A stretch of DNA of 64,000 bases from Saccharopolyspora hordei. GTDB taxonomy: Bacteria; Actinomycetota; Actinomycetes; Mycobacteriales; Pseudonocardiaceae. The position numbers and the translations under genes were made by a program. The stretch covers positions 2,207,001-2,271,000 of the forward strand of contig NZ_JACCFJ010000001.1 in NCBI RefSeq assembly GCF_013410345.1, in the 5' to 3' direction. Position 1 is the first letter of the stretch. Each line of letters starts with the position of its first letter. Of this stretch, positions 1-14,257 are shown piece after piece. The notes under the pieces are model-generated. The model had not been told where the DNA came from and did no database searches. It was given only the letters and a program-made list of their open reading frames with translations.

Positions 1-1
1 G

Positions 2-1871
2 AGCTACGGCGCGATCTCCGCCGAGGCGCACGAGACGCTGGCGATCGCGATGAACCGCATCGGCGGCAAGTCCAACTCCGGTGAGGGCGGCGAGGACGTC
101 GACCGGCTCTACGACCCGGAGCGGCGCTCCGCGGTCAAGCAGGTCGCCTCCGGCCGGTTCGGCGTCACCAGCGAGTACCTGGTCAACGCCACGGACATCC
201 AGATCAAGATGGCGCAGGGCGCCAAGCCCGGTGAGGGCGGTCAGCTGCCCGGCCACAAGGTGTACCCGTGGGTGGCCAAGACCCGGCACTCCACGCCGGG
301 CGTGGGGCTGATCTCGCCGCCGCCGCACCACGACATCTACTCGATCGAGGACCTGGCGCAGCTGATCCACGACCTCAAGAACGCCAACGAGCACGCCCGC
401 GTGCACGTCAAGCTGGTGTCCGAAGTGGGCGTCGGCACGGTCGCGGCGGGTGTGTCCAAGGCGCACGCGGACGTGGTGCTGATCTCCGGCCACGACGGCG
501 GGACCGGTGCGGCGCCGCTGACCTCGCTCAAGCACGCTGGCACGCCGTGGGAGGTCGGCCTGGCCGAGACGCAGCAGACGCTGCTGCTCAACGGCCTGCG
601 GGACCGCATCACGGTGCAGGTCGACGGCGGGTTCAAGACCGGCCGCGACGTCGTGGTGGCGGCGCTGCTGGGCGCCGAGGAGTACGGCTTCGCCACCGCG
701 CCGCTGGTGGTCGAGGGCTGCGTGATGATGCGCGTCTGCCACCTCGACACCTGTCCGGTGGGCGTGGCGACCCAGAACCCGGAGCTGCGCAAGCGCTACA
801 CCGGCAAGGCCGAGCACGTGGTGAACTTCTTCGAGTTCATCGCGCAGGAGGTCCGGGAGTACCTGGCGCAGCTGGGCTTCCGCACCCTCGACGAGGCGAT
901 CGGCCAGGTCTCCGCGCTCCGCGTGGACGAGGCGGTGGAGAACTGGAAGGCCCGCGGGCTGGACCTCTCCCCGGTGTTCGCCGAGCCGAAGACCCCGTAC
1001 TCGCCGGTGCGGCGCCGGGTCCGCGAGCAGGACCACGGCCTGGACCGGGCGCTGGACCGCACGCTGATCCAGCTCGCCGAGGCGGCGCTGGAGGACGCCC
1101 GCCCGGTGAAGCTGCAGCTGCCGGTGCGCAACGTCAACCGCACCGTCGGCACGCTGCTGGGTGCGGAGGTCACCCGCCGCTACGGCGGTGACGGGCTGCC
1201 GGACGACACCATCCACGTCCAGCTGGAGGGCTCGGCCGGTCAGTCGCTGGGCGCCTTCCTGCCGCGGGGCATCACGCTGGACATGGTCGGCGACGCCAAC
1301 GACTACGTCGGCAAGGGCCTGTCCGGCGGGCGGGTCATCGTGCGCCCGCACCCGGACGCGCCGTTCGCCGCCGAGGACCAGGTGATCGCGGGCAACGTGA
1401 TCGGCTACGGCGCGACGAGCGGTGAGGTCTTCCTGCGCGGCAAGGTCGGCGAGCGCTTCGCGGTGCGCAACTCCGGCGCGCTGCTGGTCGCCGAGGGCGC
1501 GGGGGACCACGCCTTCGAGTACATGACCGGTGGCCGCGCGGTGGTGCTCGGCGGCACCGGCCGCAACGTGGGCGCCGGCATGTCGGGCGGCATCGCCTAC
1601 GTGCTGGACCTGGACCCGGTGCGGGTGAACACCGCGATGGTGGACCTGCAGCGGCCCAGCGCCAAGGAGCTCAAGTGGCTGCAGGAGGTCGTGCAGCGCC
1701 ACCACGAGTACACCGGGTCGACGGTGGCGGCCTCGCTGCTGGGTGACTGGCCGCGGCGCTCCGCAGCGTTCCGCAAGGTGATGCCGCGCGACTACCAGCG
1801 GGTCTTGGAGGCCATGCGGATGGCCAAGATCGAGGGCCGGGACATCGACGAGGCGATCATGGAGGCTTCCC

Positions 1872-1879
<8 letters not shown>
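2..1879 (+). CDS. gltB: Glutamate synthase large subunit (GOGAT alpha), 5'-truncated by window edge
   Basis: This is the C-terminal part of the large subunit of NADPH glutamate synthase, which transfers the amide nitrogen of glutamine to 2-oxoglutarate. The reading frame is open from base 2, so the gene starts upstream of the window. The FMN-binding synthase domain is visible, including the SNSGEGGED stretch near the start and the [3Fe-4S] cysteines encoded at 719, 737 and 752, spaced C-x5-C-x4-C as in the family. The C-terminal third is the Gly-rich beta-helix domain (repeated [18 protein letters not shown] turns). The stop overlaps the start of gltD by 8 bp, so the two subunits are almost certainly translationally coupled. 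Identity is very sure; only the 5' end is missing. Confidence 0.97.
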
Positions 1880-3374
<1,495 letters not shown>

Positions 3375-3386
3375 CCCGCTTCCCGC

Positions 3387-3423
3387 AGGGCGCTCCCCAT
3401 CGCCGGCTGGCGGGGAGCGCCCT
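3387..3423 (+). terminator. Hairpin terminator after gltBD
   Basis: A perfect 12-bp inverted repeat (AGGGCGCTCCCC, 3387-3398, and its complement, 3412-3423) around a 13-nt loop lies 12 bases after the gltD stop. There is no U-tract, as is usual for high-GC actinomycete terminators. Confidence 0.75.
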
Positions 3424-3425
3424 CC

Positions 3426-3517
3426 GCGTGTCCGCACGCGATTCCGGTGGGAACCAGACGTCTGGTTTCCCGTGAGATCACGGTGCCGCACGGGGCACGT
3501 CGCCGATCCCCCTGCGC
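3426..3517. repeat. Copy A of a ~90-bp operator-carrying repeat
   Basis: This stretch and 5389-5476 align over nearly their whole length: a shared GCGTGTCCGCACGC start, then AACCAGACGTCTG, then GCACGGGGCACG, then a CCCCCTGCGC end. By eye they are about three-quarters identical. The centre of copy A is the perfect 12-bp palindrome CCAGACGTCTGG (3454-3465). The same AGACGTCT core lies at the promoter of the GntR gene at 4365-4372, so the repeats probably carry binding sites for that regulator or its relatives (inference). Confidence 0.7.
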
Positions 3518-3557
3518 CGAACTGACCCAGGGGCGTTCAGTCCCTGGAGAGCAGAAG

Positions 3558-3592
3558 GCGCCTTCCACCGCCGACCACCGGCGGAAGGCGCC
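3558..3592 (-). terminator. Hairpin terminator of the GntR gene
   Basis: GGCGCCTTCC (3558-3567) pairs with GGAAGGCGCC (3583-3592), and an additional GCC/GGC pair extends the stem across a small bulge. It sits about 14 bases beyond the stop of the leftward GntR gene, so it probably ends that transcript. Confidence 0.6.
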
Positions 3593-3605
3593 CTTCGTGC
3601 GTGCG

Positions 3606-4348
3606 TCAGTCCGCGTCCCAGGCGTAGCGGAGTTCGTAGCCGATACCGGACATCACCATGTCGGTGGCCTCGACGACCCGGTCGCCGCTCCACGTGCGGC
3701 GCCGAACGGTGAGCACCGGGCCGCTGCCGAGGTCGAGCAGCTGGCGCTCGTTCGCGTCCGGCATGCGGGCGCTCACGATCTCCTCGTGCCGGGTGATCTC
3801 GAAACCCGCCTCCTCCAGGCGCGCGAGCGCGCCACCAGGGCCGGTGTCCGTTCCTTCCAGCGCGGTGCCCCTCGTGATGTCGCGGGGCAGCCGGGACACG
3901 GCGAGCATGACCGGTTCACCGTCGGCACGCATCACCCGGTCGCGGACGCACAGCTCGGAATCCTCGGCCACGCCGGGGAGTTCCGCGTAGTCCTGCGCGG
4001 GTTCGAACCACACCCGGACCGACGTCGTCGGGTGAAGCCCTGGTCGTCGGCCTCGGCCAGGAAAGCGGCCCGGTTCTGCTCCCTGCGCGCCTTGGCCAGT
4101 CGTTCGCGGGAGTCCAGTCGGCGAACCACTCTCGGTGGTGCGACGAACACGCCGACGCCGTGCCGCATCTGCACCAGACCGGCGTCCCGGAGTTCCTTGA
4201 GCGCCTGCCGGACGGTGGTTCGCGAAGCCTCGAACTGCTCTTGCAGTGCTTGCTCCGTCGGCAGCTGGTCACCTGCGCTCAGCGCGCCGCTGTCGATCTG
4301 ACTTCGCAGCGTCGCCGCGATCTCCTGGTACTTCGCTGCGGCGGACAT
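3606..4348 (-). pseudogene. GntR/HutC-family repressor, single-base frameshift
   Basis: A GntR-type transcription factor split over two frames. The first frame encodes the winged helix (KYQEIAATLRSQIDSG, LPTEQALQEQFEASRTTVRQAL, GLVQMRHGVGVFV) and runs up to DDQGFT. The other frame continues with VRVWFEPAQDYAELPGV and a complete UTRA ligand-binding domain ending GIGYELRYAWDAD. Adding one C to the CCC run near 4030 joins the frames into one protein of about 247 residues, the usual length for the HutC subfamily. ATG at 4348 has a GAGG about nine bases upstream; a GTG at 4363 is the alternative start. The AGACGTCT palindrome at 4365-4372 is directly upstream, suggesting autoregulation. Either a recent inactivating deletion or a sequencing error in a C run. 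Confidence 0.85.
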
Positions 4349-4363
4349 CCGAACACCTCGCAC

Positions 4364-4373
4364 TAGACGTCTG
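4364..4373. promoter_or_regulatory. GntR operator-like palindrome (AGACGTCT core)
   Basis: TAGACGTCTG contains the 8-bp palindrome AGACGTCT and lies 16 bases upstream of the repressor ATG. The same core occurs at 3456-3463 and 5419-5426 inside the two flanking repeats. Palindromes next to GntR genes are usually autoregulatory operators; binding itself is inferred. Confidence 0.6.
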
Positions 4374-4434
4374 GGACCTCACGAACGAGTGTCCCACCTT
4401 GCCTCACTCATGAGTTTCCCGCGACCTTCTGAGT

Positions 4435-4470
4435 CGTATGAGACGTATGAGACGACTGATGCGTATGAGG
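4435..4470 (+). repeat. Array of 9-bp direct repeats upstream of small ORFs
   Basis: Four consecutive 9-bp units: CGTATGAGA (4435), CGTATGAGA (4444), the degenerate CGACTGATG (4453) and CGTATGAGG (4462). A 10-bp palindrome ACTCATGAGT lies just before them at 4406-4415. The array fills the gap between the divergent GntR gene and the small ORF at 4480, so it is placed like an iteron-type or multi-site regulator binding region. This is strikingly AT-richer than the surroundings. Confidence 0.6.
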
Positions 4471-4479
4471 TGAGTTCGT

Positions 4480-4719
4480 GTGGCGCTCTTCGCTCAGGGG
4501 CAGTCGGGAAGTCGCTGGGAAGCGGCAGGAAGCCAGCCGGAGGCGCGTCGACTTGCGCGATCGGCCGACGCCGTGGAGGCCGCGGAAGCGGATGCCACTG
4601 CGATGAGTGCCGTCGAGCTCGTCCAGCTCGCGCGTCCGGGGCGTCATGAACGCCCGTCATGCGCGGATCGCCCGGTTGGTGCGAGCGGCGGTCCTGGTGC
4701 TCGACAACGCGGCCGATGA
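4480..4719 (+). CDS. Small hypothetical protein, uncertain 3' end
   Basis: A 79-residue reading frame starting at GTG 4480 behind GAGGTGAG (4467-4474). The first 55 residues (MALFAQGQSGSRW..., then Ala/Glu-rich, then MSAVELVQLARPG) look protein-like. The end is Arg/Gly/Pro-rich and overlaps the next ORF by 74 bases in another frame, which suggests a frameshift or a shorter real gene. I recognise no family. It is the first of a run of tiny rightward ORFs divergent from the GntR gene, an arrangement seen in actinomycete integrative elements. Confidence 0.35.
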   Translation: MALFAQGQSGSRWEAAGSQPEARRLARSADAVEAAEADATAMSAVELVQLARPGRHERPSCADRPVGASGGPGARQRGR

Positions 4720-4864
4720 CATCGCCCGTGGCACGTGGGCGGATTCCGAGCTGAAGAGCATGGCCGACGCGCTCGACGTGCTGACAGCGGCGTTGCGCGG
4801 TGAAGGCAGAACCGCGACCGGGCACGACGTGCTGGTCGTCGATGCGGAAAGGATCGACCGTTGA
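4646..4864 (+). CDS. Small helical hypothetical protein (72 aa)
   Basis: The reading frame from ATG 4646 encodes 72 residues with a clear amphipathic helical pattern (MNARHARIARLVRAAVLVL, then a TWADSELKSMADALDVLTAAL helix) and an acidic end. No signal peptide is apparent and I recognise no family. Its stop overlaps the next ORF's TTG start (TTGA, 4861-4864), so the two are probably co-translated. Downstream of the 9-bp repeat array and divergent from the broken GntR gene. An in-frame start at 4607 would add 13 mostly Ser residues and is less likely. Confidence 0.5.
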   Translation: MNARHARIARLVRAAVLVLDNAADDIARGTWADSELKSMADALDVLTAALRGEGRTATGHDVLVVDAERIDR

Positions 4865-5004
4865 TCCTCGTGAGCGCGTGCGCCGGCGTTGCGGCAGTGC
4901 TGACCTTGTGGTGGATCGTCCGTTTGTTCTTGCCAGCCGCAGCGCGCTGGAGGTCGCGAAGGCGCACCAACGGTGCGGTCCCTGGTGGAGCGAATCGAGG
5001 CTGA
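4861..5004 (+). CDS. Tiny single-pass membrane protein (47 aa)
   Basis: A 47-codon frame starting at TTG 4861, overlapping the previous stop by 4 bp. Residues 2-29 form one hydrophobic helix (ILVSACAGVAAVLTLWWIV then RLFLPAAARW) followed by a very basic tail (RSRRRTNG). This is the pattern of a small inner-membrane protein with its C-terminus in the cytoplasm. No family recognised. The 4-bp overlap is the main reason to believe the TTG start. Confidence 0.4.
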   Translation: MILVSACAGVAAVLTLWWIVRLFLPAAARWRSRRRTNGAVPGGANRG

Positions 5005-5188
5005 GGCTGGCAGAGGCGGCCGTCATCGCCTGCGTGAGCCGATCGCCGACCGCGGAGGTGCCGCCGGTGACGGCGCCTCCGACGAGGTGCTGACGCGTTC
5101 GCCGCAACCCGAGGAGCCCGATCCTCGCGGGTACGTGCGAAGTCCGCTGGTCCTGCGACGAGTTCTCGCTGGGCTGCGGCGCTCGTAG
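4973..5188 (+). CDS. Small hypothetical protein (71 aa)
   Basis: GTG-started frame of 71 residues overlapping the preceding mini-ORF by 32 bases. It begins MRSLVERIEAEAGRGG, has an acidic, flexible centre and ends basic (RSPLVLRRVLAGLRRS). No recognised family or transmembrane helix. Last of the run of small rightward ORFs between the two repeat copies. Confidence 0.35.
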   Translation: MRSLVERIEAEAGRGGRHRLREPIADRGGAAGDGASDEVLTRSPQPEEPDPRGYVRSPLVLRRVLAGLRRS

Positions 5189-5595
5189 ACCCGGCTCGGT
5201 GCTGGCCGCACTCCCTCCCCGAGACCCGGCACCGAGCTTCCCCGGCCGGACGGCGTCCCGCGCCCGCGTCGTCCGGCCCCTCTCAACTCGTCTCCACGAT
5301 CGAGACGATCCGCGAGGATGACGAAGCCCGGTACGGGGAGTTCCTCGCGGTGTGCTCGCGCCGGGGGCTCGTCGCTTGAGGGGCCGGTGCGTGTCCGCAC
5401 GCAACTCCAATGGAAACCAGACGTCTGATCCCCATCGGAATTGCGGTGCACGGGGCACGCGCCGGTCCCCCTGCGCAGTGCGGGTGTTCCGTTCCTGAGC
5501 GGGTCGCCCGGGCGGGGGACGGTCGAGTATCCTGCCGCGGGTGTCCGGAAACGCCCGGACTTGACTGTCCTCAGTAGACCGACCTCGGGGGAGCG
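5189..5595. other. Gene-free stretch between the small ORFs and the PH-like gene
   Basis: No convincing gene. An open frame ending at the TGA near 5378-5380 reads ...STIETIREDDEARYGEFLA... and then stops, and could be the 3' remnant of a lost gene, but it has no start and I do not claim it. The rest contains repeat copy B and the leader of the gene at 5596. Confidence 0.4.
5389..5476. repeat. Copy B of the ~90-bp operator-carrying repeat
   Basis: Second copy of the repeat at 3426-3517, in the same orientation, about 1.9 kb away. It keeps AACCAGACGTCTG (5416-5427 region) with the palindrome arms slightly decayed (CCAGACGTCTGA). The two copies bracket the GntR gene and the small ORFs. Confidence 0.7.
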
Positions 5596-6090
5596 GTGGA
5601 GTTCCACAAGAGCCAGCACCGGCTGGTCATGGCCGTCGTCTTCCTGGCGCTCGGCGTGGCGGGGTCCGCGCTGATGACCGTCTGGGCCGACCAGGTCGGG
5701 CGGATCCCGGTGCTGTCCGTGGTGTCTCCCGTGCTCCTGGTCATGGGCATCGCGACGCTCATCGGCAGCCTGCGGCCGTTCACGTTGCGGGTCGACGGGC
5801 GCGGCATCCTGCTGGAGCACCCGGCTCGGCGGGTGCGGGTCGAGCTGGCCTGGCAGCAGATCGAGCAGGTCTCGGTGGAGAAGCTGCCCAGGCCCCGGGG
5901 CGAGCGGGGCGCCGCCACCTACCTGACGGTCTGGCTGCGGGGCGGGGAGAACCCCGGGGTGCCGCAGAAGAGGGCGATCCGGCGCGACGGCCGGGTCGGC
6001 TACCGGCTGCTCGACGTCAACGACGTCCGCGAGAGCGCGGACGAGCTCCGCACCACGCTCTCCCACTACGGCGCCTCGGTCTTCCGCTGA
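5596..6090 (+). CDS. PH-domain-like membrane protein
   Basis: A 164-residue protein with two transmembrane helices at the start (about residues 11-28 and 38-58) followed by a cytoplasmic beta-rich segment (FTLRVDGRGILLEHP, VRVELAWQQIEQVSVE, YLTVWL) typical of bacterial PH-like (bPH2) domains. Start is GTG 5596 with GGGGGAG just upstream. Such proteins are common in actinomycetes and have no firm function. It stands alone, convergent with helD. Confidence 0.75.
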   Translation: MEFHKSQHRLVMAVVFLALGVAGSALMTVWADQVGRIPVLSVVSPVLLVMGIATLIGSLRPFTLRVDGRGILLEHPARRVRVELAWQQIEQVSVEKLPRPRGERGAATYLTVWLRGGENPGVPQKRAIRRDGRVGYRLLDVNDVRESADELRTTLSHYGASVFR

Positions 6091-6094
6091 CCAC

Positions 6095-6119
6095 CCGCGG
6101 GAACGCGAGCGCCCCGCGG
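6095..6119. terminator. Short hairpin between convergent genes
   Basis: CCGCGGG (6095-6101) pairs with CCCGCGG (6113-6119) around an 11-nt loop, filling the 30-bp gap between the stops of the PH-like gene and helD. It could serve both strands. Confidence 0.45.
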
Positions 6120-6120
6120 A

Positions 6121-8415
6121 TCACCCGATCTTGCGCAGGACCTCCGGCAAGTCCTCGGTGTGGAGGACGCCGAGGCGCTGGGTCGCCCGGGTCAGGGCCA
6201 CGTAGAGGTCGTTGAGGCCGCGTTCGGACCCCGCCGCGATCGCGGCCGGCTCCACGAGCAGCACCGAGTCGAACTCCAGGCCCTTGGCCTGCTCCACGGT
6301 CAGCAGCACGGCGGGGGAGTCCAGGTCGTCGGGGCTGGTGCCCATCGCCGCCTCGGGCAGCGACTCCACCACCCGCGGCCCGACCTCGGCCAGCAGCTCC
6401 GGCGGCATGAGCACCGCCAGCCGCCCGTCCTCGACCTCCCGCAGCTCCTCGGCGACCGCGCCCGGCAGCGCCGCGGCCAGGTCGCCGACCCGGCGCGCCC
6501 ACGGCCGGTGCCCGCTGGTGCGCACCGACTTCGGCGCCTCCAGGTCGGTGTCCATCGCGGCCAGCACGTCGGCCGCGACGTCCATGATCTCGGCCGGGGT
6601 GCGGTAGTTGACCGTGAGCTCGGCCAGCTTCCAGCGGTCCTGCACGTACGGGTGCAGCACCTCGTGCCAGGTGTCCGCCCCGGCCAGCGCACCGGTCTGC
6701 GCGACGTCGCCGACCAGCGTCATCGACCGGCTCGGGCAGCGGCGCATGAGCACCCGCCACGCCATCGGCGACAGCTCCTGCGCCTCGTCCACGATCACGT
6801 GCCCGAACGTCCAGGTGCGGTCCTCGGCGGCGCGCTCGGCCGCGGTCAGGTCGCTGCGGGCGCGGAACCGCTCGGCGAGCAGCTCGGCGTCCAGCACGTC
6901 CTTCACCCGCAGCCGCTCCTCGTCGGCGATCTCCTCGTCCTGCTCCATGATGTGCAGGACGCCCTGCGCGTAGGCGAGCTCTTCGCGCTCCTGGCGTTCG
7001 CGCTCGGCGCGGGCCTGCTCGTCGTCCTCGCCGAGCAGCTCGGCCAGCTCGTCCAGCAGCGGCACGTCGGCCGGGGTCCACGGCGAGCCCGCCGGGCGCA
7101 GCAGTTCCGCGCGCTCGGCGTCGTCGAGGTGCTTGCGGCTCGCCGAGGCCAACAGCTCCGGCGAGCTGAGCAGCTCGTCCAGCAGCTGCTGGGGGCTGGT
7201 CTCCGGCCACAGCTCGTCGAGCGCCCGGTCCACCGCCGGGTCGGCGCGCAGCTCGACGTTGATCTCGTCCAAGTCGCGGCGGTCGAGCAGGTCGCGGCCG
7301 AGCCGGTCGGCCACCTGCAGGGTCAGCGCGCGGAACATCTCGTCGCGGAACACCCGCCGCGCCAGGTTGTGCGGCCGGCGGGTGCGGCGAGCGCGGGTGC
7401 GGGCCTGCGTCGCGGTGGCCCGGTCGATGCGCAGCGGCTCGCGGTCGAAGGTGACCTCGACGTGGTCGGACGGCACCTGCTGGCGGTCGCGGACCGCGGC
7501 GGTCAGCACGTCGACCATGCTCGCGCGGCCCTTGATCTCCGCCGCCCGCGCGGACTCCACGCCGGTCGCGGTGATCCCGGGGTACAGACCGCCCACAGTG
7601 GACAGCAGCACGCCGGTCTCGCCGAGGGACGGCAGCACCTGGCCGATGTAGCGCAGGAACGTCTCGTTCGGACCGACGACCAGCACACCGCGCTTGGACA
7701 GCTGCTCGCGGAACGTGTAGAGCAGGTAGGCCGCGCGGTGCAGCGCCACGGCGGTCTTGCCGGTCCCCGGCCCGCCCTGCACGACGAGCACGCCGTTCAT
7801 GCCGGCGCGGATGATCCGGTCCTGCTCGGCCTGGATGGTGGCGACGATGTCCTGCATCTGCCCGGTGCGGCGGGCGTCGAGCCGGGCCAGCAGCGTCGCC
7901 TCCCCGGCCAGCCCGAGGTCGCTGCCCTGCTCGGCGGCGTCGAGGTCGAGCACCTCGTCCTCGTAGTCCAGGACCTTGCGCCAGCTGGTGCGCAGGTGCC
8001 GCCGGCGGCGCACGCCGTCGCGGGCGGCGGCGGTGGCCAGGTAGAACGGCCGGGCGGCCGGGGCGCGCCAGTCCAGCAGCAGCGGTTCGTACTCGTTGTC
8101 CTCGTCGAACAGTCCGATCCGGCCGATGTGGAAGGTCTCACCGCTGTCCAGGTCCAGCCGGCCGAAGCACATCCCGTGCTCCACGGCGCTGAGCTGGCTG
8201 AGCTTGTCGGTGTACATCCGGGCGGAGATGTCGCGCTCGGTGCGGGCCTGCGGCGGTCCACCGCTGTCCCGGAGCGTGTCCTTCAACCGCTGCGCGGTCT
8301 CCTCCCGCAGGGCGTCGAGCTTCTCGTACAGCGTGTCGAGGTACTGCTGCTCGGCTGCCAGTTCCTGCGCGCGGACCGCATCCCGATCGGCTCGGGCGTT
8401 GGACAATTGCGCCAC
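6121..8415 (-). CDS. helD: HelD-like RNA polymerase-associated helicase
   Basis: A 764-residue UvrD/Rep-like superfamily 1 ATPase of the HelD type. The N-terminus is a coiled coil (AAEQQYLDTLYEKLDALREE), as in the arm that enters the RNA polymerase secondary channel. Next comes the HelD signature region FHIGRIGLFDEDNEYEPLLLDWRAP, then Walker A GGPGTGKT near residue 213, a large insertion, Walker B region VIVDEAQELSPMAW, and the C-terminal NDLYVALTRATQ motif. HelD proteins free stalled or inactive RNA polymerase from DNA; some actinomycete relatives (HelR) protect against rifamycins. I saw no obvious rifamycin-associated promoter element upstream. GTG start at 8415. Transcribed alone. Confidence 0.88.
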   Translation of the reverse strand: MAQLSNARADRDAVRAQELAAEQQYLDTLYEKLDALREETAQRLKDTLRDSGGPPQARTERDISARMYTDKLSQLSAVEHGMCFGRLDLDSGETFHIGRIGLFDEDNEYEPLLLDWRAPAARPFYLATAAARDGVRRRRHLRTSWRKVLDYEDEVLDLDAAEQGSDLGLAGEATLLARLDARRTGQMQDIVATIQAEQDRIIRAGMNGVLVVQGGPGTGKTAVALHRAAYLLYTFREQLSKRGVLVVGPNETFLRYIGQVLPSLGETGVLLSTVGGLYPGITATGVESARAAEIKGRASMVDVLTAAVRDRQQVPSDHVEVTFDREPLRIDRATATQARTRARRTRRPHNLARRVFRDEMFRALTLQVADRLGRDLLDRRDLDEINVELRADPAVDRALDELWPETSPQQLLDELLSSPELLASASRKHLDDAERAELLRPAGSPWTPADVPLLDELAELLGEDDEQARAERERQEREELAYAQGVLHIMEQDEEIADEERLRVKDVLDAELLAERFRARSDLTAAERAAEDRTWTFGHVIVDEAQELSPMAWRVLMRRCPSRSMTLVGDVAQTGALAGADTWHEVLHPYVQDRWKLAELTVNYRTPAEIMDVAADVLAAMDTDLEAPKSVRTSGHRPWARRVGDLAAALPGAVAEELREVEDGRLAVLMPPELLAEVGPRVVESLPEAAMGTSPDDLDSPAVLLTVEQAKGLEFDSVLLVEPAAIAAGSERGLNDLYVALTRATQRLGVLHTEDLPEVLRKIG

Positions 8416-8497
8416 CTTGTACCTGGGGATCGGCTAGGGGAACGGGCGGACCCGACTCCGCCGGGGCCCGACCCACCAGTGTACCGCCCGCAGCGCA

Positions 8498-8551
8498 GGG
8501 GGTCGTGAGTGCGAAGACCGGCTCCAACCGGCTCCCGCACTCACGACCCCC
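8498..8551 (-). terminator. Long hairpin terminator after gntP, member of a repeat family
   Basis: A perfect 16-bp inverted repeat (GGGGGTCGTGAGTGCG at 8498-8513, complement at 8536-8551) with a 22-nt loop that contains two copies of ACCGGCT. It starts 4 bases past the permease stop. A closely related hairpin with the same GTCGTGAGTGCG stem and ACCGGCT loop follows the ligase gene at 41375-41420. Confidence 0.75.
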
Positions 8552-8555
8552 GTGG

Positions 8556-9965
8556 TCACAGGACCGCGGACAGCCCCAGGATCACCGCGAAGGAGACGAC
8601 CGAGAGCAGCGTCTCCATCGCCGACCAGGTCTTCAAGGTCTGCCCGACGGTCATCCCGAAGTACTCCTTGACCAGCCAGAACCCGGCGTCGTTGACGTGC
8701 GAGAGGAACAGCGAGCCGGAGCCGATGGCCAGCGCGACCAGGGCGCCCTGCGCGGGCGGCATGTCGACCACCATCGGCGCCACCATCCCGGCCGCCGAGA
8801 TCGTGGCCACCGTGGCCGACCCGGTGGCGACCCGGATGCCGACCGCGATCAGCCAGCCCAGCACCAGCGGAGAGAGGTGCGCCCCGCTGGCCAGGTCGGT
8901 GATCATGGTGTTCACCCCGGAGTCGACCAGGGTCTGCTTGAAACCACCGCCGGCGCCGACGATGAGGATGATCCCGGCGATCGCGGGCAGCGAGCCGCCG
9001 ACCACGTCGGCGAGCCGGTTGCGGCTGAACCGGGCGCCGGTGCCGAGCACCACGATGGCGATCAGCACGGTGAGCATCATGGCGACCACCGGGGTGCCGA
9101 TGGTGTCGAGCACCCGGTAGCCGACGGTCCCCTCGGCCAGCGTCAGGTCGGCCACGGACTTGCCGAGCATGAGCACCACGGGCAGCAGCAGCATGGTGAC
9201 GGCGGCGAGGAAGCTGGGCCGCTTCTCCGGTGCGGTCTCCGTCGCGGACCCGCCGAGCAGGTGGGCGGCCGGGGACAGCGGCACGCGCTGGGCGATGAAG
9301 GCGCCGAACACCGGACCGGCGACGATGGCGGTCGGGATCGACACGAGCACGCCGAGCGCGAGGGTGGTGCCCAGGTCGACGTGCAGCGCGTCGACCGCGG
9401 CGAGCGGGCCGGGGTGCGGCGGGACGAGCCCGTGCAGGATCGACAGCCCGGCCAGCGCGGGGATGCCGATGCGCAGCATCGGCTGCTCGGACCGGCTGGC
9501 CACCATGACCACGACCGGGACCAGCAGCACGACGCCGACCTCGAAGAACATCGGCAGACCCAGCAGCGCGGCGATGAACACCATCGCCCACGGCAGGGTG
9601 CGCTGCGTGGTGCGGCGCAGCACCGTCTCCACGACCTGCTCGGCGCCGCCGGTGTCGGTGAGCAGCTTGCCGAGCATCGCGCCGAGCGCCACGAGCAGGC
9701 CGACGTCGCCGACCGTCCCGCCGAGGCCTTCGGTGAAGGTGTCGACCAGGTCGCTGAACGGCATCCCGGCGACCACGCCGAGCGTGGTGGCGCCCAGGGC
9801 CAGGGACAGGAAGGGGTGCAGCTTCGCCCAGCTGATCAGCACCACGATGACGGCGATGCCGGCGATGGCCGCGGTGAGCAGGCGGGCGTCGTGCGCGCTC
9901 CACGCGCCGGGCTCCGGGGCCTGGGCGAGGGCGGCGGTGAGGCTGCCGCGAAGGCTGGTTGGCAT
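8556..9965 (-). CDS. gntP: Gluconate:H+ symporter, GntP family
   Basis: An integral membrane permease of 469 residues with about 12-14 hydrophobic segments and the GntP hallmarks GLPMFFEVGVVLLVPVV, HGLVPPHPGPLAAVDAL, GNTM-like VNTMITDLASG, and SVATATISAAGM-like SATVATISAAGMVAP. The family imports gluconate and related sugar acids with protons. ATG 9965 is preferred over one 12 codons upstream because GAGGAG lies nine bases ahead of it. Divergent from the FadR-type regulator at 10119, with a 22-bp AT-rich palindrome between, so it is probably repressed by that protein. No gluconate kinase is nearby. Confidence 0.9.
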   Translation of the reverse strand: MPTSLRGSLTAALAQAPEPGAWSAHDARLLTAAIAGIAVIVVLISWAKLHPFLSLALGATTLGVVAGMPFSDLVDTFTEGLGGTVGDVGLLVALGAMLGKLLTDTGGAEQVVETVLRRTTQRTLPWAMVFIAALLGLPMFFEVGVVLLVPVVVMVASRSEQPMLRIGIPALAGLSILHGLVPPHPGPLAAVDALHVDLGTTLALGVLVSIPTAIVAGPVFGAFIAQRVPLSPAAHLLGGSATETAPEKRPSFLAAVTMLLLPVVLMLGKSVADLTLAEGTVGYRVLDTIGTPVVAMMLTVLIAIVVLGTGARFSRNRLADVVGGSLPAIAGIILIVGAGGGFKQTLVDSGVNTMITDLASGAHLSPLVLGWLIAVGIRVATGSATVATISAAGMVAPMVVDMPPAQGALVALAIGSGSLFLSHVNDAGFWLVKEYFGMTVGQTLKTWSAMETLLSVVSFAVILGLSAVL

Positions 9966-10008
9966 GGAGGGGCTCCTCGTTGAGCAGCTGGTGCGCGGCA
10001 CAGCCTAA

Positions 10009-10030
10009 GCAATAAGTATGACTTTATTGC
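10009..10030. promoter_or_regulatory. Palindromic operator between gntP and its regulator
   Basis: GCAATAA, 8 bases, TTATTGC: perfect 7-bp arms in a very AT-rich spot in otherwise GC-rich DNA, 44 bases before the permease ATG and 89 before the regulator ATG. An extra AAGTATG occurs inside it and again at 10045-10051. The position and symmetry fit the site of the divergent GntR-family regulator. Confidence 0.6.
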
Positions 10031-10118
10031 CATGTTGACCGATCAAGTATGCCTGTTGTTCCCGTCACCCGTCCGTTCCGGCCTATGTTCGAGGCGGTCG
10101 ACGACGGGAAGGGGCGAC

Positions 10119-10835
10119 ATGGCCGGCGGGCTGCACGACAGGGTCCTGGACGTGCTCGGGCACGAGATCGCCGCCGGCACGCACCCGCCCGGCAGCGTCC
10201 TGCGCACCGAGGACGTCGAGCAGCGGTTCGGCATCTCCCGCAGCGTCGCCCGCGAGGTCGTGCGCAGCCTCGCCTCGATCCGGCTGGTGGTCGGCCGCCA
10301 GCGGGTCGGGACCGTGGTGCGCCCGCGCGAGGACTGGAACGCCTTCGACCCGCAGCTCATCCGCTGGCAGCTGGCGGCCGACCGCACCGCGCAGCTGAAG
10401 ACCCTCGCGGAGCTGCGCACCGCGGTGGAACCGGTGGCCGCGGCGGCGGCCGCCCAGCGCGCCTCGCACGAGGACGCGGCCCGGCTGGTGTCGCTGTCCG
10501 AGCGGATGGTCGCCACCGCGCGCGCCGGCGACCTGGACACCTTCATGGCCGCCGACGTCGAGTTCCACCGGCTGGTGCTGACGGCGTCGGGCAACGAGAT
10601 GTTCGCCCAGCTGCACGAGGTCGTCGAGGAGCTGCTGCGCTGGCGGGCCGGGCACGGCCTGATGCCCGAACACCCGCGCCCGGTAGCAGTACGGTTGCAC
10701 TGCGAGATCGCGGAGTGCATCCGCAGCGGTGATCGGGCGCGGGCGGAGGGGGCCATGCGCGAACTGGTCGCCGAAGCGCTGGAGGGAACCCTCGCCGGTC
10801 TGGCGGACCAGCAGGCTCCCGCCGTCCCCAGCTAG
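10119..10835 (+). CDS. FadR-type (FCD) GntR regulator of gluconate uptake
   Basis: A 238-residue transcription factor. Residues 1-70 form the winged helix (HDRVLDVLGHEIAAG, GSVLRTEDVEQRFGISRSVAREVVRSL, VVGRQRVGTVVRP). The rest is an FCD ligand domain with the metal-ligand pattern (AADVEFHRLVL... and VRLHCEIAECI). ATG 10119 follows GGAAGGGG. Its divergent position next to gntP and the palindrome between them suggest it senses gluconate or a phosphorylated derivative; the ligand is inferred. Confidence 0.85.
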   Translation: MAGGLHDRVLDVLGHEIAAGTHPPGSVLRTEDVEQRFGISRSVAREVVRSLASIRLVVGRQRVGTVVRPREDWNAFDPQLIRWQLAADRTAQLKTLAELRTAVEPVAAAAAAQRASHEDAARLVSLSERMVATARAGDLDTFMAADVEFHRLVLTASGNEMFAQLHEVVEELLRWRAGHGLMPEHPRPVAVRLHCEIAECIRSGDRARAEGAMRELVAEALEGTLAGLADQQAPAVPS

Positions 10836-10837
10836 GT

Positions 10838-10853
10838 GTCCCGAGGCCGGGAC
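10838..10853. terminator. Short hairpin between convergent genes
   Basis: GTCCCG (10838-10843) and CGGGAC (10848-10853) around a 4-nt loop directly after the regulator stop. Weak but well placed between two convergent genes. Confidence 0.35.
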
Positions 10854-10881
10854 GGCGGCTCGCCAGTCGCGTGCGGCCTGG

Positions 10882-11562
10882 TCAGTAACCCATGTAGCTA
10901 CCGCCGCTGCGAACGCCGGAGACGCCGGGGACGTCGCTCACCGATCCGTACCGGGCGATCGCGTAGCGGGTGGCCGCGATGATGTTGTCCACCGGGTCGT
11001 AGATGTTCTCGTGCCCGGGGAGCGCGAAGGACTCGAAGGTCGGCTCGATGGTCTGCATCAGACCGATCGACGGGGTGCCGGCCGCGGCGTTGGAGTCCCA
11101 GTCGTTCGTGGCGGTCGGGTCGCCGTTGGACTCGTGCATGATGATCGTGCGGATGGCCTCGGGGTCGACCTGGTCGCGCGAGACGCCGTTCTGCTCCATG
11201 ACGCGGACGGCCTCGTCGATCCACGCGCCGATGTGGTCCACCGGCTTCTGCTCGACCGGCTGCTCCGGCGCGGGGGCCGCCTCCGGCGCGGGTGCAGCCT
11301 CGGGGGCGGGCTGCGGCGCCGGGGCGGGGGCCGGTGCGGCGGGAAGCGGCGCGGAGTCGTTGACGGGGGAAACGACTGCGGCCGTCTTCACTCGGGGTTG
11401 CTCGGCACCGGTGCCGGCCATGCCGGTGAACGCGCCCAGGACGCCGAACGCGGCCACCGCGGTGCCGACCTGCAGCGCTCGCGTCTTCGGGGGGACGCGG
11501 TGCTGGCGCTTCGGGGCGTCGCCGAGGAACGTCGCGCGCAGCCGGCTCGCCGTGTTCGACAC
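10882..11562 (-). CDS. Secreted or membrane-anchored lytic transglycosylase-like protein
   Basis: A 226-residue protein with a hydrophobic helix near residues 30-50 (VGTAVAAFGVLGAFTGMAG), then a long Pro/Ala/Glu linker, then a C-terminal SLT-like lysozyme fold (IRTIIMHESNGDPTATNDWD, SIGLMQTIEPTFESF, YDPVDNIIAATRYAIARYG). The Glu in MHESNG is the expected catalytic acid for cleaving peptidoglycan glycan strands. GTG 11562 is chosen because AGAGGA precedes it; an upstream in-frame ATG at 11712 would add 50 polar residues. Actinomycete genomes carry several such proteins; which role this one has (growth, sporulation, resuscitation) cannot be read from sequence. Confidence 0.82.
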   Translation of the reverse strand: MSNTASRLRATFLGDAPKRQHRVPPKTRALQVGTAVAAFGVLGAFTGMAGTGAEQPRVKTAAVVSPVNDSAPLPAAPAPAPAPQPAPEAAPAPEAAPAPEQPVEQKPVDHIGAWIDEAVRVMEQNGVSRDQVDPEAIRTIIMHESNGDPTATNDWDSNAAAGTPSIGLMQTIEPTFESFALPGHENIYDPVDNIIAATRYAIARYGSVSDVPGVSGVRSGGSYMGY

Positions 11563-11899
11563 CGTCCTCTCCCCACGGTGCGAACGCGTCGGCCGGCTCC
11601 CTCGGCCGTCGGGGGTGTGCTCGTCGGGTACGTGGTCGTTGAGGTGATGGTCTTCGGGGTTCACGCATCCCAGGTTCCAGCACGGAGAGTGCACACGCAC
11701 CGAGGTTTGCACCTAGGCAAGTACCTAGATTCGACTGGTCGGGGGACTACGGCGCGATCGACAACTACGGAAAGTGAGAACCTGGGGGCTCATCGCACCG
11801 TGCCGGCGCGCACCGCGGTCAGGACGTGCGGGCGCACCGGGCTCGGTGCCGCGGGGAGCGTGGGGACCGCCGTCGGGCGGTGGAGGTGCCGGGGGTGGG
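11563..11899. other. Intergenic stretch, mostly leader of the transglycosylase-like gene
   Basis: No gene seen. On the leftward strand it would be the 5' leader of the gene starting at 11562. It includes a CCTAGG palindrome (11712-11717) with ACCTAG repeated at 11723-11728. I checked it for a cyclic-di-AMP (ydaO) riboswitch, common ahead of such genes in actinomycetes, and did not find a convincing match. Confidence 0.4.
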
Positions 11900-14257
11900 T
11901 CAGCGCGGGGCGGGGTCGGCGGGTGCGCCGGTCCCGCGCTGGGCGGCCACCCACCCGGCGATCTGCGCGCGCGAGGAGAAGTCGAGCTTGGTCAGGATGT
12001 TCTGCACGTGGCCCTCCACGGTGCGCTGCGCGATGACCAGGCTCTCCGCGATCTCCTTGTTCGTGTTGCCCTGCGCGACCAGCTCCGCGATCTGCCGCTC
12101 GCGGCGCGTGAGCGGCATCGGATGGACGTTCTCCTCGCTGCGCGCCCGGGCGTGCCGCTTGGTCTCCAGCGCGAAGTCGATGAGGTGCGGCACGGACAGC
12201 CGGCGGCCCCGGTCGAAGGCCTCCTGGAACGCCTCCTCGCCCAGCGCCGAGCGGGTCTGCGACAGGTGGGCCTCGTGGTCGGTGGCGAACGGCGCCCAGA
12301 ACCCGGGCGCGGCGGACACCGCGTCCCAGACCGACGAGGCCGCGCCGAACAGCCGCGCGGCGCGGTCGTGCTTGCCCTGCCGCTGGGCGATCCAGGCGAG
12401 GCTGTCGATGCCGAGGGCGATGCCCAGCCGGTTGTCCAGCTTCCGCTGCAGCCGGACGGCCTTCTTCGCCGCCGTCTCGGCCCGCTCCAGCTCGCCGCGC
12501 ACCGCCTCGGTCTGCGCCGACGCCCACAGCGCGTAGGACCGCCAGTACAGCTCACCGTGCTCGGTGGCCAGCCGGACGCAGTCCTCCAGCGCCTCGAGAC
12601 CGCTCTCGGGGTCCTCGTGGAGCCCCTTGACCAGGCCCAGGCCGAACAGCGCGAACAGCTCCCCGGGCAGCGAGCCGTGCTTGCGGAACTGCGCGAGCGC
12701 GTCTTCCACCAGCGAGATCGCGCGCGCCGCGTTGTTGTCCGCGAACGCCGCCAGGCCCCGCACCAGCGCCAGGTACGGCTTCTCGGCCTCCTCGCCGCGC
12801 TGCGTGGCCAGCACCGTCGCCTGCTCCAGGGTCGAGCGCACGCTGTCCAGGTCACCGTGCAGCAGCGCGAACCACGCGCTGATCCGCAGCGCGCGCACCC
12901 GCTCGGGCACGTCGCGCGGGGTGCTGGCCAGCACCTGCTCCAGCCAGTGGCGCGCCTCGCCGTTGAGCCCGCGGATGACCCAGTACGGCCACAGGTCGGT
13001 GGCCAGCGCCAGCGCCGTGCCCGCGGTGTCGGGGTGCGCCGCGGCCGTCTGCAGCGCGGTGCGCAGGTTGCCCTGCTCGCTGCGCATCCGCTGCACCCAC
13101 TCGACCTGGTCCGGGCCGATCCAGCTGTCGGCGAAGCGCTCGGCGAGGGCGCTGAAGAACGACAGGTGCCGCCGCTGCATGGCGTCCAGCTCGCCGAACT
13201 CCTCGAGCTTGTCCTGCCCGTACTCGCGCAGCGCGTGCGGCAGCCGGAAGCGGGCCTCGCCGCTCTCCTCCACGCGCAGCAGCACGGACTTGTCCACCAG
13301 CGAGTGGACCGAGCTCAGCACGTCGGAGCCGGACAGGACGTCGCGGACCACGTGCTCGGCGGCGGCCAGGTCGAAGGTGCCGGAGAACACCGACATCCGC
13401 GCCCACGCCAGCCGGTCCTGGTCGGAGGCCAGCTCGTAGCTCCAGTCGATCAGCGCGCGCAGCGACCGCTGCCGGGCCGGGGCGCTGCGGCGGCCCTCGG
13501 TGAGCAGGTCGTACCGCTCGGCGAGGCGCTCCTCCAGCTGCTGCACGGACAGTGAGCGCAGCCGCACCGCGGCCAGCTCGATGGCCAGCGGGTTGCCGTC
13601 GAGGTGGTGGCACAGCCGCATCAGCGCGGTGGCGTTCTCCGGCGTCACCTCGAACTCGGGCACCGCCGCCCGGGCCCGGTCGACGAACAGGCGCACCGAG
13701 GCGAACTGCTCGTGGGCCTCCGGCGGCGGCAGGTGCTCGATGTCGGGCACCTGCAGCGGCGGCACGACCATGGTGGCCTCGCCGGCGACGCCGAGGGACT
13801 GCCGGCTGGTGGCCAGCACCCGCACGCCGGGGCACCACCGCACCACCGCGTCCACCAGCAGCGCGACCTCGTCGACCACGTGCTCGCAGTTGTCCAGCAC
13901 GAGCAGCATCTCGCGGTTCTTGAGCTGCTCGACGACGGTGTCGAGGTCCTCGCCGGCGCTGGGGCCGCCGATGCCGAGCTGCTCGACGACCGTGTCGATC
14001 ACGCGGGACCGGTCCTGGAGGTCCTCGAGTCCGACGTACCAGGCCTTGTCCCGGAACGAGCGGCGCATGCCGGCGGCCACCCGGATGGCGAGCCGCGTCT
14101 TGCCGACCCCGCCGGGCCCGGTGAGGGTGACGACACGGGACTCCGCGAGCAGCCGCTTGGTCAGGGTGATCTCACGGCGCCGGCCGACGAAGCTCGTGAC
14201 GTCGGCCGGGAGGTTGCCCGCTGCATCCCGCACGCGGGCGCGCGCAGTAGAGACCAC
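11900..14257 (-). CDS. Large ATPase/TPR regulator with C-terminal LuxR HTH
   Basis: A 785-residue signal-transduction ATPase. The N-terminal FVGRRREI box and Walker A GPGGVGKTRLA (about residues 46-56) start an NB-ARC/AAA-type domain with Walker B LLVLDNCEHVVDE. The middle (about 400-690) is helical and TPR-like. The last 65 residues form a LuxR/GerE helix-turn-helix (LTRRERQIAELVAQGNTNKEIAESL...VEGHVQNILTKL). This layout matches the COG3903-type predicted ATPase regulators widespread in actinomycetes, sometimes grouped with LAL regulators. Start is GTG 14257. No target is suggested by the neighbours. Confidence 0.85.
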   Translation of the reverse strand: MVSTARARVRDAAGNLPADVTSFVGRRREITLTKRLLAESRVVTLTGPGGVGKTRLAIRVAAGMRRSFRDKAWYVGLEDLQDRSRVIDTVVEQLGIGGPSAGEDLDTVVEQLKNREMLLVLDNCEHVVDEVALLVDAVVRWCPGVRVLATSRQSLGVAGEATMVVPPLQVPDIEHLPPPEAHEQFASVRLFVDRARAAVPEFEVTPENATALMRLCHHLDGNPLAIELAAVRLRSLSVQQLEERLAERYDLLTEGRRSAPARQRSLRALIDWSYELASDQDRLAWARMSVFSGTFDLAAAEHVVRDVLSGSDVLSSVHSLVDKSVLLRVEESGEARFRLPHALREYGQDKLEEFGELDAMQRRHLSFFSALAERFADSWIGPDQVEWVQRMRSEQGNLRTALQTAAAHPDTAGTALALATDLWPYWVIRGLNGEARHWLEQVLASTPRDVPERVRALRISAWFALLHGDLDSVRSTLEQATVLATQRGEEAEKPYLALVRGLAAFADNNAARAISLVEDALAQFRKHGSLPGELFALFGLGLVKGLHEDPESGLEALEDCVRLATEHGELYWRSYALWASAQTEAVRGELERAETAAKKAVRLQRKLDNRLGIALGIDSLAWIAQRQGKHDRAARLFGAASSVWDAVSAAPGFWAPFATDHEAHLSQTRSALGEEAFQEAFDRGRRLSVPHLIDFALETKRHARARSEENVHPMPLTRRERQIAELVAQGNTNKEIAESLVIAQRTVEGHVQNILTKLDFSSRAQIAGWVAAQRGTGAPADPAPR

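Follow-up and report, generated by a model that had tools for sequence, protein, structure and literature searches.

The two repeats of about 90 bp that bracket a GntR regulator gene in the 64,000-nucleotide stretch of DNA analysed here (the window) each contain one member of an extensive family of 46-bp palindromes that, among the genomes searched, is restricted to one genus. We consider it likely that the family is REP-like and non-autonomous, and that its copies act as hairpins at the 3' ends of genes.

The repeats are real, as originally proposed: copy 1 (3426–3517, plus strand, 92 bp) lies 3' of gltD and copy 2 (5389–5476, plus strand, 88 bp) upstream of a 164-aa gene, they share direct orientation with 75 of 94 aligned columns identical, and copy 1 used as a query against the whole genome retrieves copy 2 at an E value of 1.6 × 10−13. 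In the same search, all other matches to copy 1 span at most 35 bases, leaving no third full repeat, and the better of them (E < 0.001) are confined to query positions 13–52, the palindromic centre. The recurring unit is the 46-bp palindrome rather than the whole repeat, and roughly 45 bp outside it are common to copies 1 and 2 only. The members in the window occupy positions 3437–3482, beginning 62 bp past the gltD stop codon and scoring 59.1 bits with our covariance model R1, and 5400–5445, also matched by R1 and ending 150 bp ahead of the 164-aa gene. As both were among the ten copies from which R1 was built, the family rests on places other than these.

R1 finds the palindrome at 75 places in the 5.78-Mb genome, of which 64 reach E ≤ 0.01 (a manual count based on 139 strand matches with E ≤ 1). 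The expectation that a genome-wide search would reveal a dispersed family is thereby borne out for the palindromic centre, but not for the full repeat. A congener, G014, has at least 112 places, and a degenerate 46-mer allowing up to three mismatches gives 107 plus-strand and 112 minus-strand matches there; this 46-mer is present in 10 of the 22 genus members examined (the genus is probably Saccharopolyspora), while its reversed control has no match in any of the 22. With matches required to reach E ≤ 1 × 10−4, the palindrome occurs in 15 of the 22 and is found neither in the other seven nor in 19 relatives outside the genus, and among 120 genomes of the taxonomic family, searched with stricter filters (E ≤ 1 × 10−6), it appears in three, all of them members of the genus. 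One G014 copy used as a query had no match in plasmid and phage collections, and Rfam covariance models had none at E ≤ 5 in window positions 1–12000; three Rfam matches on one G014 stretch, all far below gathering scores, were disregarded. At least 26 G014 places (a manual count among the matches listed, with 20 of the source copies chosen by top score) carry one of two 46-bp versions that differ at a single central base, in flanks mostly unrelated to each other. Many G014 copies are identical and probably recent, whereas the copies in the genome studied here are degenerate and probably old.

Gene context was checked for the 61 best-scoring of the 75 own-genome places. All 61 copies are outside called genes: 35 sit between tandem genes, 24 between convergent genes, one between divergent genes and one has no orientation call. 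The 20 G014 copies examined divide into 11 tandem and nine convergent, and only five of the 11 tandem copies are nearer the preceding stop codon than the following start. Compared with 30 gaps within the window, defined by our own gene finder, which overlooks genes with unusual codon usage, divergent placement is depleted (P = 3 × 10−6) and convergent placement enriched (P = 0.001). By eye, another hairpin adjoins many copies and may be the real terminator.

Most printed copies start with CGC(G) and finish with (C)GCG, and the arms of the palindrome covary modestly. Of 52 own-genome copies, 36 are exactly 46 bp long, and in an alignment (A3) of all of these except L174, 35 copies in total, full-hairpin covariation is 0.299 compared to 0.250 ± 0.014 in shuffles, none of 500 of which was as high. 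Counting Watson–Crick pairs only, 36 copies pair at 68.9%, whereas shuffles average 65.2% (s.d. 1.3), and at least one of 1,000 shuffles reached the observed value. A second alignment (A2) was not used for covariation because it includes each copy in both orientations, and inner half-hairpins were rejected as the structural unit because their covariation is not above that of shuffles. Changes between orthologous copies point the same way: in 12 comparisons drawing on 10 distinct G014 elements (a thirteenth, C versus G002, was gapped and dropped), both arms had changed at 10 of 252 stem pairs where independence predicts 1.7, and at six where it predicts 0.8 when the outer 19 pairs are taken alone. 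Eight of these 10 replaced one Watson–Crick pair with another and two did not end as Watson–Crick pairs; one-arm changes, at 21, exceed both-arm changes. For copy 2 of the window, the minus strand of 5387–5480 folds at −55.8 kcal/mol (z = −6.0) and the plus strand has a z of −1.9, while the two strands of copy 1 have z scores of −1.2 and −2.1, so that three of the four strand folds lie within about two standard deviations of shuffles.

The palindromes in G014 are often doubled, a second and diverged palindrome starting 73–98 bp away. Matching sites were compared between relatives for three G014 regions, whereas another region, L209, was covered by an R1 scan alone; at these sites the palindrome is present in some genomes and absent in others. 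Sites without it are not cleanly empty, and because their flanking bases are altered too, loss or replacement competes with gain. Target-site duplications, which the original prediction had proposed to look for, are not convincing among 40 copies of G014 and 45 of the genome studied here, as the two flanks of these 85 copies rarely match and then over 2–3 bp at most (2 bp in nine and three copies, respectively; 3 bp in one). The known driver of REP elements is a Y1 (RAYT-type) transposase. In a search for its domain (PF01797) that covered 11 of the 15 palindrome-bearing genomes and found the Escherichia coli positive control, it was undetected in six (G000, G002, G004, G007, G009 and G014) and present in five (G005, G006, G008, G013 and, in part only, G012), and it was also found in one (G011) of four genus genomes with no palindrome match; with six of 11 bearers negative, we rejected it as the driver. 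Separately, TGTCGG-type hairpins occur near 21 of 40 G014 copies, five of 52 own-genome copies and one of 100 random positions, a count we do not use as evidence because these control positions were mostly coding rather than intergenic.

The original prediction proposed, among other possibilities, that the repeats could be dispersed operators of the GntR repressor, on the grounds that both carry the same 8-bp word, AGACGTCT, as the GntR promoter. The word is indeed there, at 3456 and 5419 in the centres of the two family members and at 4365–4372 in the promoter, where its conservation extends to four GntR homologues from the genus. These are its only three occurrences in the window, yet three or more were also present in eight of 100 dinucleotide-shuffled versions of it, counted anywhere irrespective of clustering, and the whole genome has 15 compared to nine for the reversed control word. 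Within the family, AGACGTCT occurs in just two of 52 own-genome copies, and even the shorter GACGTC in 24. GntR-region DNA and palindromes are moreover found without each other: G001, G003 and G020 have the former with no palindrome match at E ≤ 1 × 10−4, GntR loci of relatives keep the promoter word without a palindrome (G012 showing weak matches only, of 16.7–20 bits), and of two genomes with many palindromes, G013 has no match to the GntR region and G004 one of only 44 bp. Copies lie 3' of genes rather than at promoters, and the regulator itself (GntR/UTRA, HutC-like; 3606–4363, minus strand) has a frame broken near 4.03 kb into overlapping frames at 3932–4363 and 3606–4013. Control of the family by this repressor is thus unsupported and, in our estimation, very improbable; the promoter word is likely the regulator's own operator, separate from the palindromes, and the regulator has no demonstrated part in the family. 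Somewhat less improbable, but still quite unlikely, is that the ~90-bp copies, resembling attachment sites or footprints of recombination, are the direct-repeat ends of an integrative element, now decayed, to which the GntR gene and small ORFs belonged. Their direct orientation and the sequence past the palindrome that they alone share would fit, as does the accessory nature of the DNA between them, on which the original prediction was right: from gltD to the 164-aa gene (patch 3375–5595) the gap is 2,221 bp here but 168 and 169 bp in G013 and G007, respectively, and downstream of gltD G004 and G014 each have other accessory DNA. Window positions 4631–5253 match, at 74% DNA identity, a stretch likewise downstream of gltD in G014. 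The G014 patch at that spot, however, has no palindrome match. No integrase or transposase domain was found in the five patch ORFs scanned, and neither Pfam nor NCBIfam has a match to a small ORF at 4607–4864 (plus strand). There are 73 further palindrome places in the genome, while patch DNA has only two short matches elsewhere in the genome (111 and 42 bp), and the family lacks convincing target-site duplications. Integration linked to a tRNA was rejected, as there is none in the window.

In the REP-like reading that we favour, the palindrome, almost always downstream of a stop codon, would be transcribed into 3' untranslated RNA and may form a hairpin that is functional whichever way it is read, protecting transcripts of the preceding gene or gene pair or contributing to their termination; being non-autonomous, it would multiply by way of a single-stranded hairpin intermediate on which some putative enzyme acts. 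A more specific version, which we hold only tentatively, is that of an actinobacterial REP-like element, with more than 100 copies per genome and dozens identical, amplified without a RAYT and serving also as a portable two-way 3'-end module; the proposed routes are a hairpin-copying enzyme or template-switch copying that would rewrite both arms together. We regard it as rather unlikely that the copies are ordinary bidirectional intrinsic terminators, immobile and selected at gene ends, with conversion and a shared optimum accounting for their likeness. Such terminators would explain the positions past stop codons and between convergent genes, the unrelated short hairpin seen by eye at site S1 in two of three relatives without palindromes (G018 and G008), and the both-arm changes, a pattern reported for Bacillus cereus terminators in an excerpt of PMC5381666. 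They would not lead one to expect so many identical G014 copies in mostly unrelated flanks, if these were independent, nor the lack of matches in seven genomes of the genus and in those outside it; many copies adjoin another hairpin, and no T-run terminator pattern was found in window positions 3300–5700, a region holding only two copies. Actinobacterial terminators may lack a T-run.

REP families, best known from proteobacteria, are associated with RAYT transposases. Here, a palindrome family varies among species of an antibiotic-producer genus, with the Y1 transposase undetected in several of the richest genomes, and culturable strains make it testable what besides RAYTs spreads such elements. 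The family would also matter for the annotation of 3' ends and for genetic engineering, because identical hairpins in such numbers are liable to recombine and to disturb assembly, with dozens of them in one genome.

Among known systems, bidirectional intrinsic terminators share with the family a hairpin past stop codons and between convergent genes, and both-arm changes, but differ in that the family is a repeated sequence with sharp 46-bp boundaries, identical in many G014 copies, and without the T-run pattern at its two window copies. Miniature inverted-repeat elements (MITEs) are likewise short, non-coding, many-copy repeats with inverted symmetry; the palindromes lack their target-site duplications, and no full-length parent element turned up incidentally. 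REP elements, as described in excerpts of PMC3733652, are short, high-copy palindromes outside genes, usually located where the neighbouring genes run in tandem or converge, and often form dimers with structured spacers. The family resembles them and REPINs in its high copy number (75 places in this genome and 112 or more in G014), patchy presence among related species, placement between tandem or convergent and rarely divergent genes, and doublets. It differs in lacking a GTAG guide tetranucleotide at the hairpin foot, in having a single symmetric palindrome as its unit, in being found in one actinobacterial genus only among the genomes searched, and in the six of 11 bearers without a detected Y1 transposase. 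A further comparison is with the CGTC-tagged REPs of Di Nocera et al. (2013, PMC3733652), which, in the excerpts of that paper, have CGTC, TGTC or CCTC at the 5' foot of a hairpin with a stem of 8–9 bp and a CCA tail, and are rarely arranged tail-to-tail. Relative to that description, the tags of our family are internal, overlapping (GACGTC, in 24 of 52 own-genome copies) and tail-to-tail, the stem has 6 bp, the tail is GCG and the inner half-hairpins do not covary above shuffles; yet when many copies are followed outward from the centre, a small hairpin with a four-base loop has CGTC at its 5' foot, replaced in some variants by TGTC or CCTC, the same tags as in those excerpts.

The two repeats lie where the original prediction placed them, at 3426–3517 (92 bp, 3′ of gltD) and 5389–5476 (88 bp, upstream of a 164-aa gene), in direct orientation with 75 of 94 aligned columns identical, a strong similarity (E = 1.6e-13). 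The word they share, AGACGTCT, occurs in the window at 3456, 4365 and 5419 and is by itself weak evidence, because three or more such words also turn up somewhere in 8 of 100 shuffled versions of the window and the whole genome has 15 sites for it and 9 for the reversed word. Searching the genome with copy 1 returned one full-length partner, copy 2, and no third full copy, as all other places match over at most 35 bases; the better of these partial matches fall on its palindromic centre, a 46-bp element (3437–3482 in copy 1, 5400–5445 in copy 2). The extra roughly 45 bp common to both copies are likely to reflect local duplication or recombination between copies.

It is the palindrome that forms a genome-wide family, which the prediction had named as one possibility. 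With a covariance model (R1) built from 10 copies, both window copies among them, we found 139 strand matches in the S. hordei genome at E ≤ 1, corresponding to at least 75 places (150 candidates scored). Taken over 36 copies of 46 bp, the consensus reads CGCGATTCCGGTGGGGACCGGACGTCCGATCTCCACCGGGATCGCG, with about half of the positions weakly determined. Among 41 relatives, 15 genomes match at E ≤ 1e-4, all of them within the genus (15 of 22, compared to 0 of 19 outside it), and five of these (G007, G009, G016, G017 and G021) have only weaker matches, with best E values of 2e-7 to 8e-5. A family-wide draw of 120 genomes, which holds at least five genus members and was filtered more strictly than the 41 relatives, gave three matching genomes at E ≤ 1e-6, again all in the genus.

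Copy number varies widely, and the spread in G014 is probably recent. A degenerate 46-mer pattern with up to three mismatches was found in 10 of the 22 genus genomes, and the reversed 46-mer, our control, in none; the five genomes with weaker R1 matches have no pattern match. The richest is G014, with 107 matches on the plus strand and 112 on the minus strand; most of these are one place read on each strand, which leaves at least 112 places. It is followed by G004 (66 plus/68 minus), G002 (60/58), G012 (31/31), G013 (16/14), G018 (12/9), G006 (11/13) and G000 (only 2/2). One of two versions that are one central base apart occupies at least 26 G014 places, as counted from partial lists, and S. 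hordei copies are degenerate by comparison. The 20 G014 copies examined with their flanks are the top scorers, so that their identity is partly due to selection; their flanks are mostly unrelated, with a TGTCGG-type hairpin adjoining several. This TGTCGG...CCGACA hairpin adjoins many G014 copies (L052–L071, L096) and may be a local terminator. Moving outward, the first base beyond the palindrome is A in 3% and T in 31% and 37% of cases (G014 and S. hordei).

We evaluated gene context with our own codon-usage gene caller for 61 copies of the 75 places, best scores first. Of these, 35 are in tandem gaps, 24 in convergent gaps and one in a divergent gap, with window copy 2 left without a class, and none lies inside a called gene. 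Genes whose codon use is atypical escape this caller, part of the GntR gene among them. Compared to window gaps of at least 100 bp (16 tandem, 12 divergent, 2 convergent), divergent gaps are depleted (Fisher test, P = 3e-6) and convergent gaps enriched (P = 0.001). Tandem copies lie a median of 36 bp from the preceding stop, which is nearer than the next start in 29 of 35; the 20 G014 copies divide into 11 tandem and 9 convergent, with the stop nearer in just 5 of the 11.

The proposal that the palindromes are operators of the intervening GntR regulator (3606–4363; HTH and UTRA domains in two overlapping frames, the frame broken near 4.03 kb in alignments with relatives) is not supported by the comparison. 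The GntR promoter, including AGACGTCTA, is kept in G002, G012, G014 and G018; in G001 the word differs once, and the G003 sequence cannot be aligned upstream. At these GntR loci R1 finds only weak places in L144 of G012 (16.6–20 bits). Nor do the two travel together, which argues against control by GntR: G001, G003 and G020 have GntR-region DNA and no palindrome match, whereas palindromes are numerous in G013, which has no GntR-region match, and in G004, which has just a 44-bp one, in a DNA-level search that diverged genes could escape.

The patch itself is accessory, as originally suggested. The gap between gltD and the 164-aa gene is 2,221 bp here, 168 bp in G013, 169 bp in G007, 211–747 bp in four others and about 3.1 kb, with other genes inside, in G004; across the loci of these seven relatives R1 at E ≤ 0.1 has a single match, which scores 16.6 bits and lies beyond the gap in L093. 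In G014, DNA downstream of gltD is 74% identical to window 4631–5253, has no R1 match and adjoins helix-turn-helix and WXG-like ORFs (translations read by eye). The position downstream of gltD thus appears to be an accessory hotspot whose contents vary by species (window 3375–5595, L145, L090), comprising the GntR patch, the helix-turn-helix and WXG-like ORFs, or hydrolase- and TetR-like genes, the latter two sets assigned by eye.

Individual sites also differ between species. At site S1, a palindrome pair is present in G014, G002 and G012, its first member is seen at a contig end in G013, and a short unrelated sequence takes its place in G018, G008 and G021. Sites E and B carry a doublet in G014 and G002 and none in G012 and G004; at site A, G012 lacks the element and G004 has one palindrome adjoining another repeat; at site C, G012 carries a different palindrome; and at site D the arrangement varies. 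At S3, G002 lacks the perfect palindrome seen in G014 and about 66 bp along with it; a single palindrome rather than two is present in G012, G013 and G004. Because the junctions are not clean, both gain and loss are possible at these sites. Four G014 regions, picked because they contain copies, hold five doublets (starts 73–98 bp apart) and five singles, with a hairpin between doublet members, by eye, where the sequence was read; the S. hordei list has two doublets, about 95 bp apart. The G012 site (L213) matching L210:13256–13301 has a different double palindrome, of GATTTCGTACGAAATC type, where G014, G002 and G004 carry the family element. A second dispersed repeat of about 170–245 bp (L096:14941–15184 in G014) occurs at many places in G004, G012 and G013 and at others in G002 and G018 and G008, and that copy is absent at the matching site of G013, G018, G021, G005 and G006.

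Within S. hordei, there is moderate evidence that pairing exceeds what column composition alone would give. Across 35 copies, 82.4% of the pairs in the full hairpin are standard (79.8% in shuffles), with a covariation of 0.299 (0.250 ± 0.014, with 0 of 500 shuffles as high), yet kinship of copies can lift such values without constraint, and Watson–Crick pairs alone (36 copies; 68.9% compared to 65.2%, s.d. 1.3) are matched by at least one of 1,000 shuffles. The two inner hairpins have no covariation excess over shuffles, and folding both strands of each window copy gives one extreme value (z = −6.0) and three between −1.2 and −2.1. When 10 G014 elements were set against orthologues in G002, G012 or G004 (12 comparisons), 31 of the 252 stem pairs were changed, 21 in one arm and 10 in both, where the per-arm rate predicts 1.7 both-arm changes (P about 1e-5); 8 of the 10 exchange one Watson–Crick pair for another. 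The outer 19 pairs alone give six, with 0.8 expected. Such changes would result from any one of three processes: template switching during repair of palindromes, conversion between copies, or selection that favours pairing.

As for a driver, the Y1 transposase domain PF01797 (RAYT family) was undetected in 6 of 11 palindrome-bearing genomes searched (G000, G002, G004, G007, G009, G014), with a positive E. coli control, and present in five (G005, G006, G008, G012 in part, G013) and in one of four genus genomes without palindromes (G011). Its presence does not track palindrome copy number. A description of the family was not recognised among the open-access papers searched, and the main text of a study of REPs (PMC3733652) lacks the words Actinobacteria, Saccharopolyspora, Streptomyces, Frankia and Mycobacterium. 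For S. erythraea, a transcriptome study notes 190 putative intergenic ncRNAs as well as long inverted repeats (PMC3610266). REPs, as described in PMC3733652, lie mostly in tandem and convergent gaps; they include dimers whose spacers are structured, and families tagged with CGTC.
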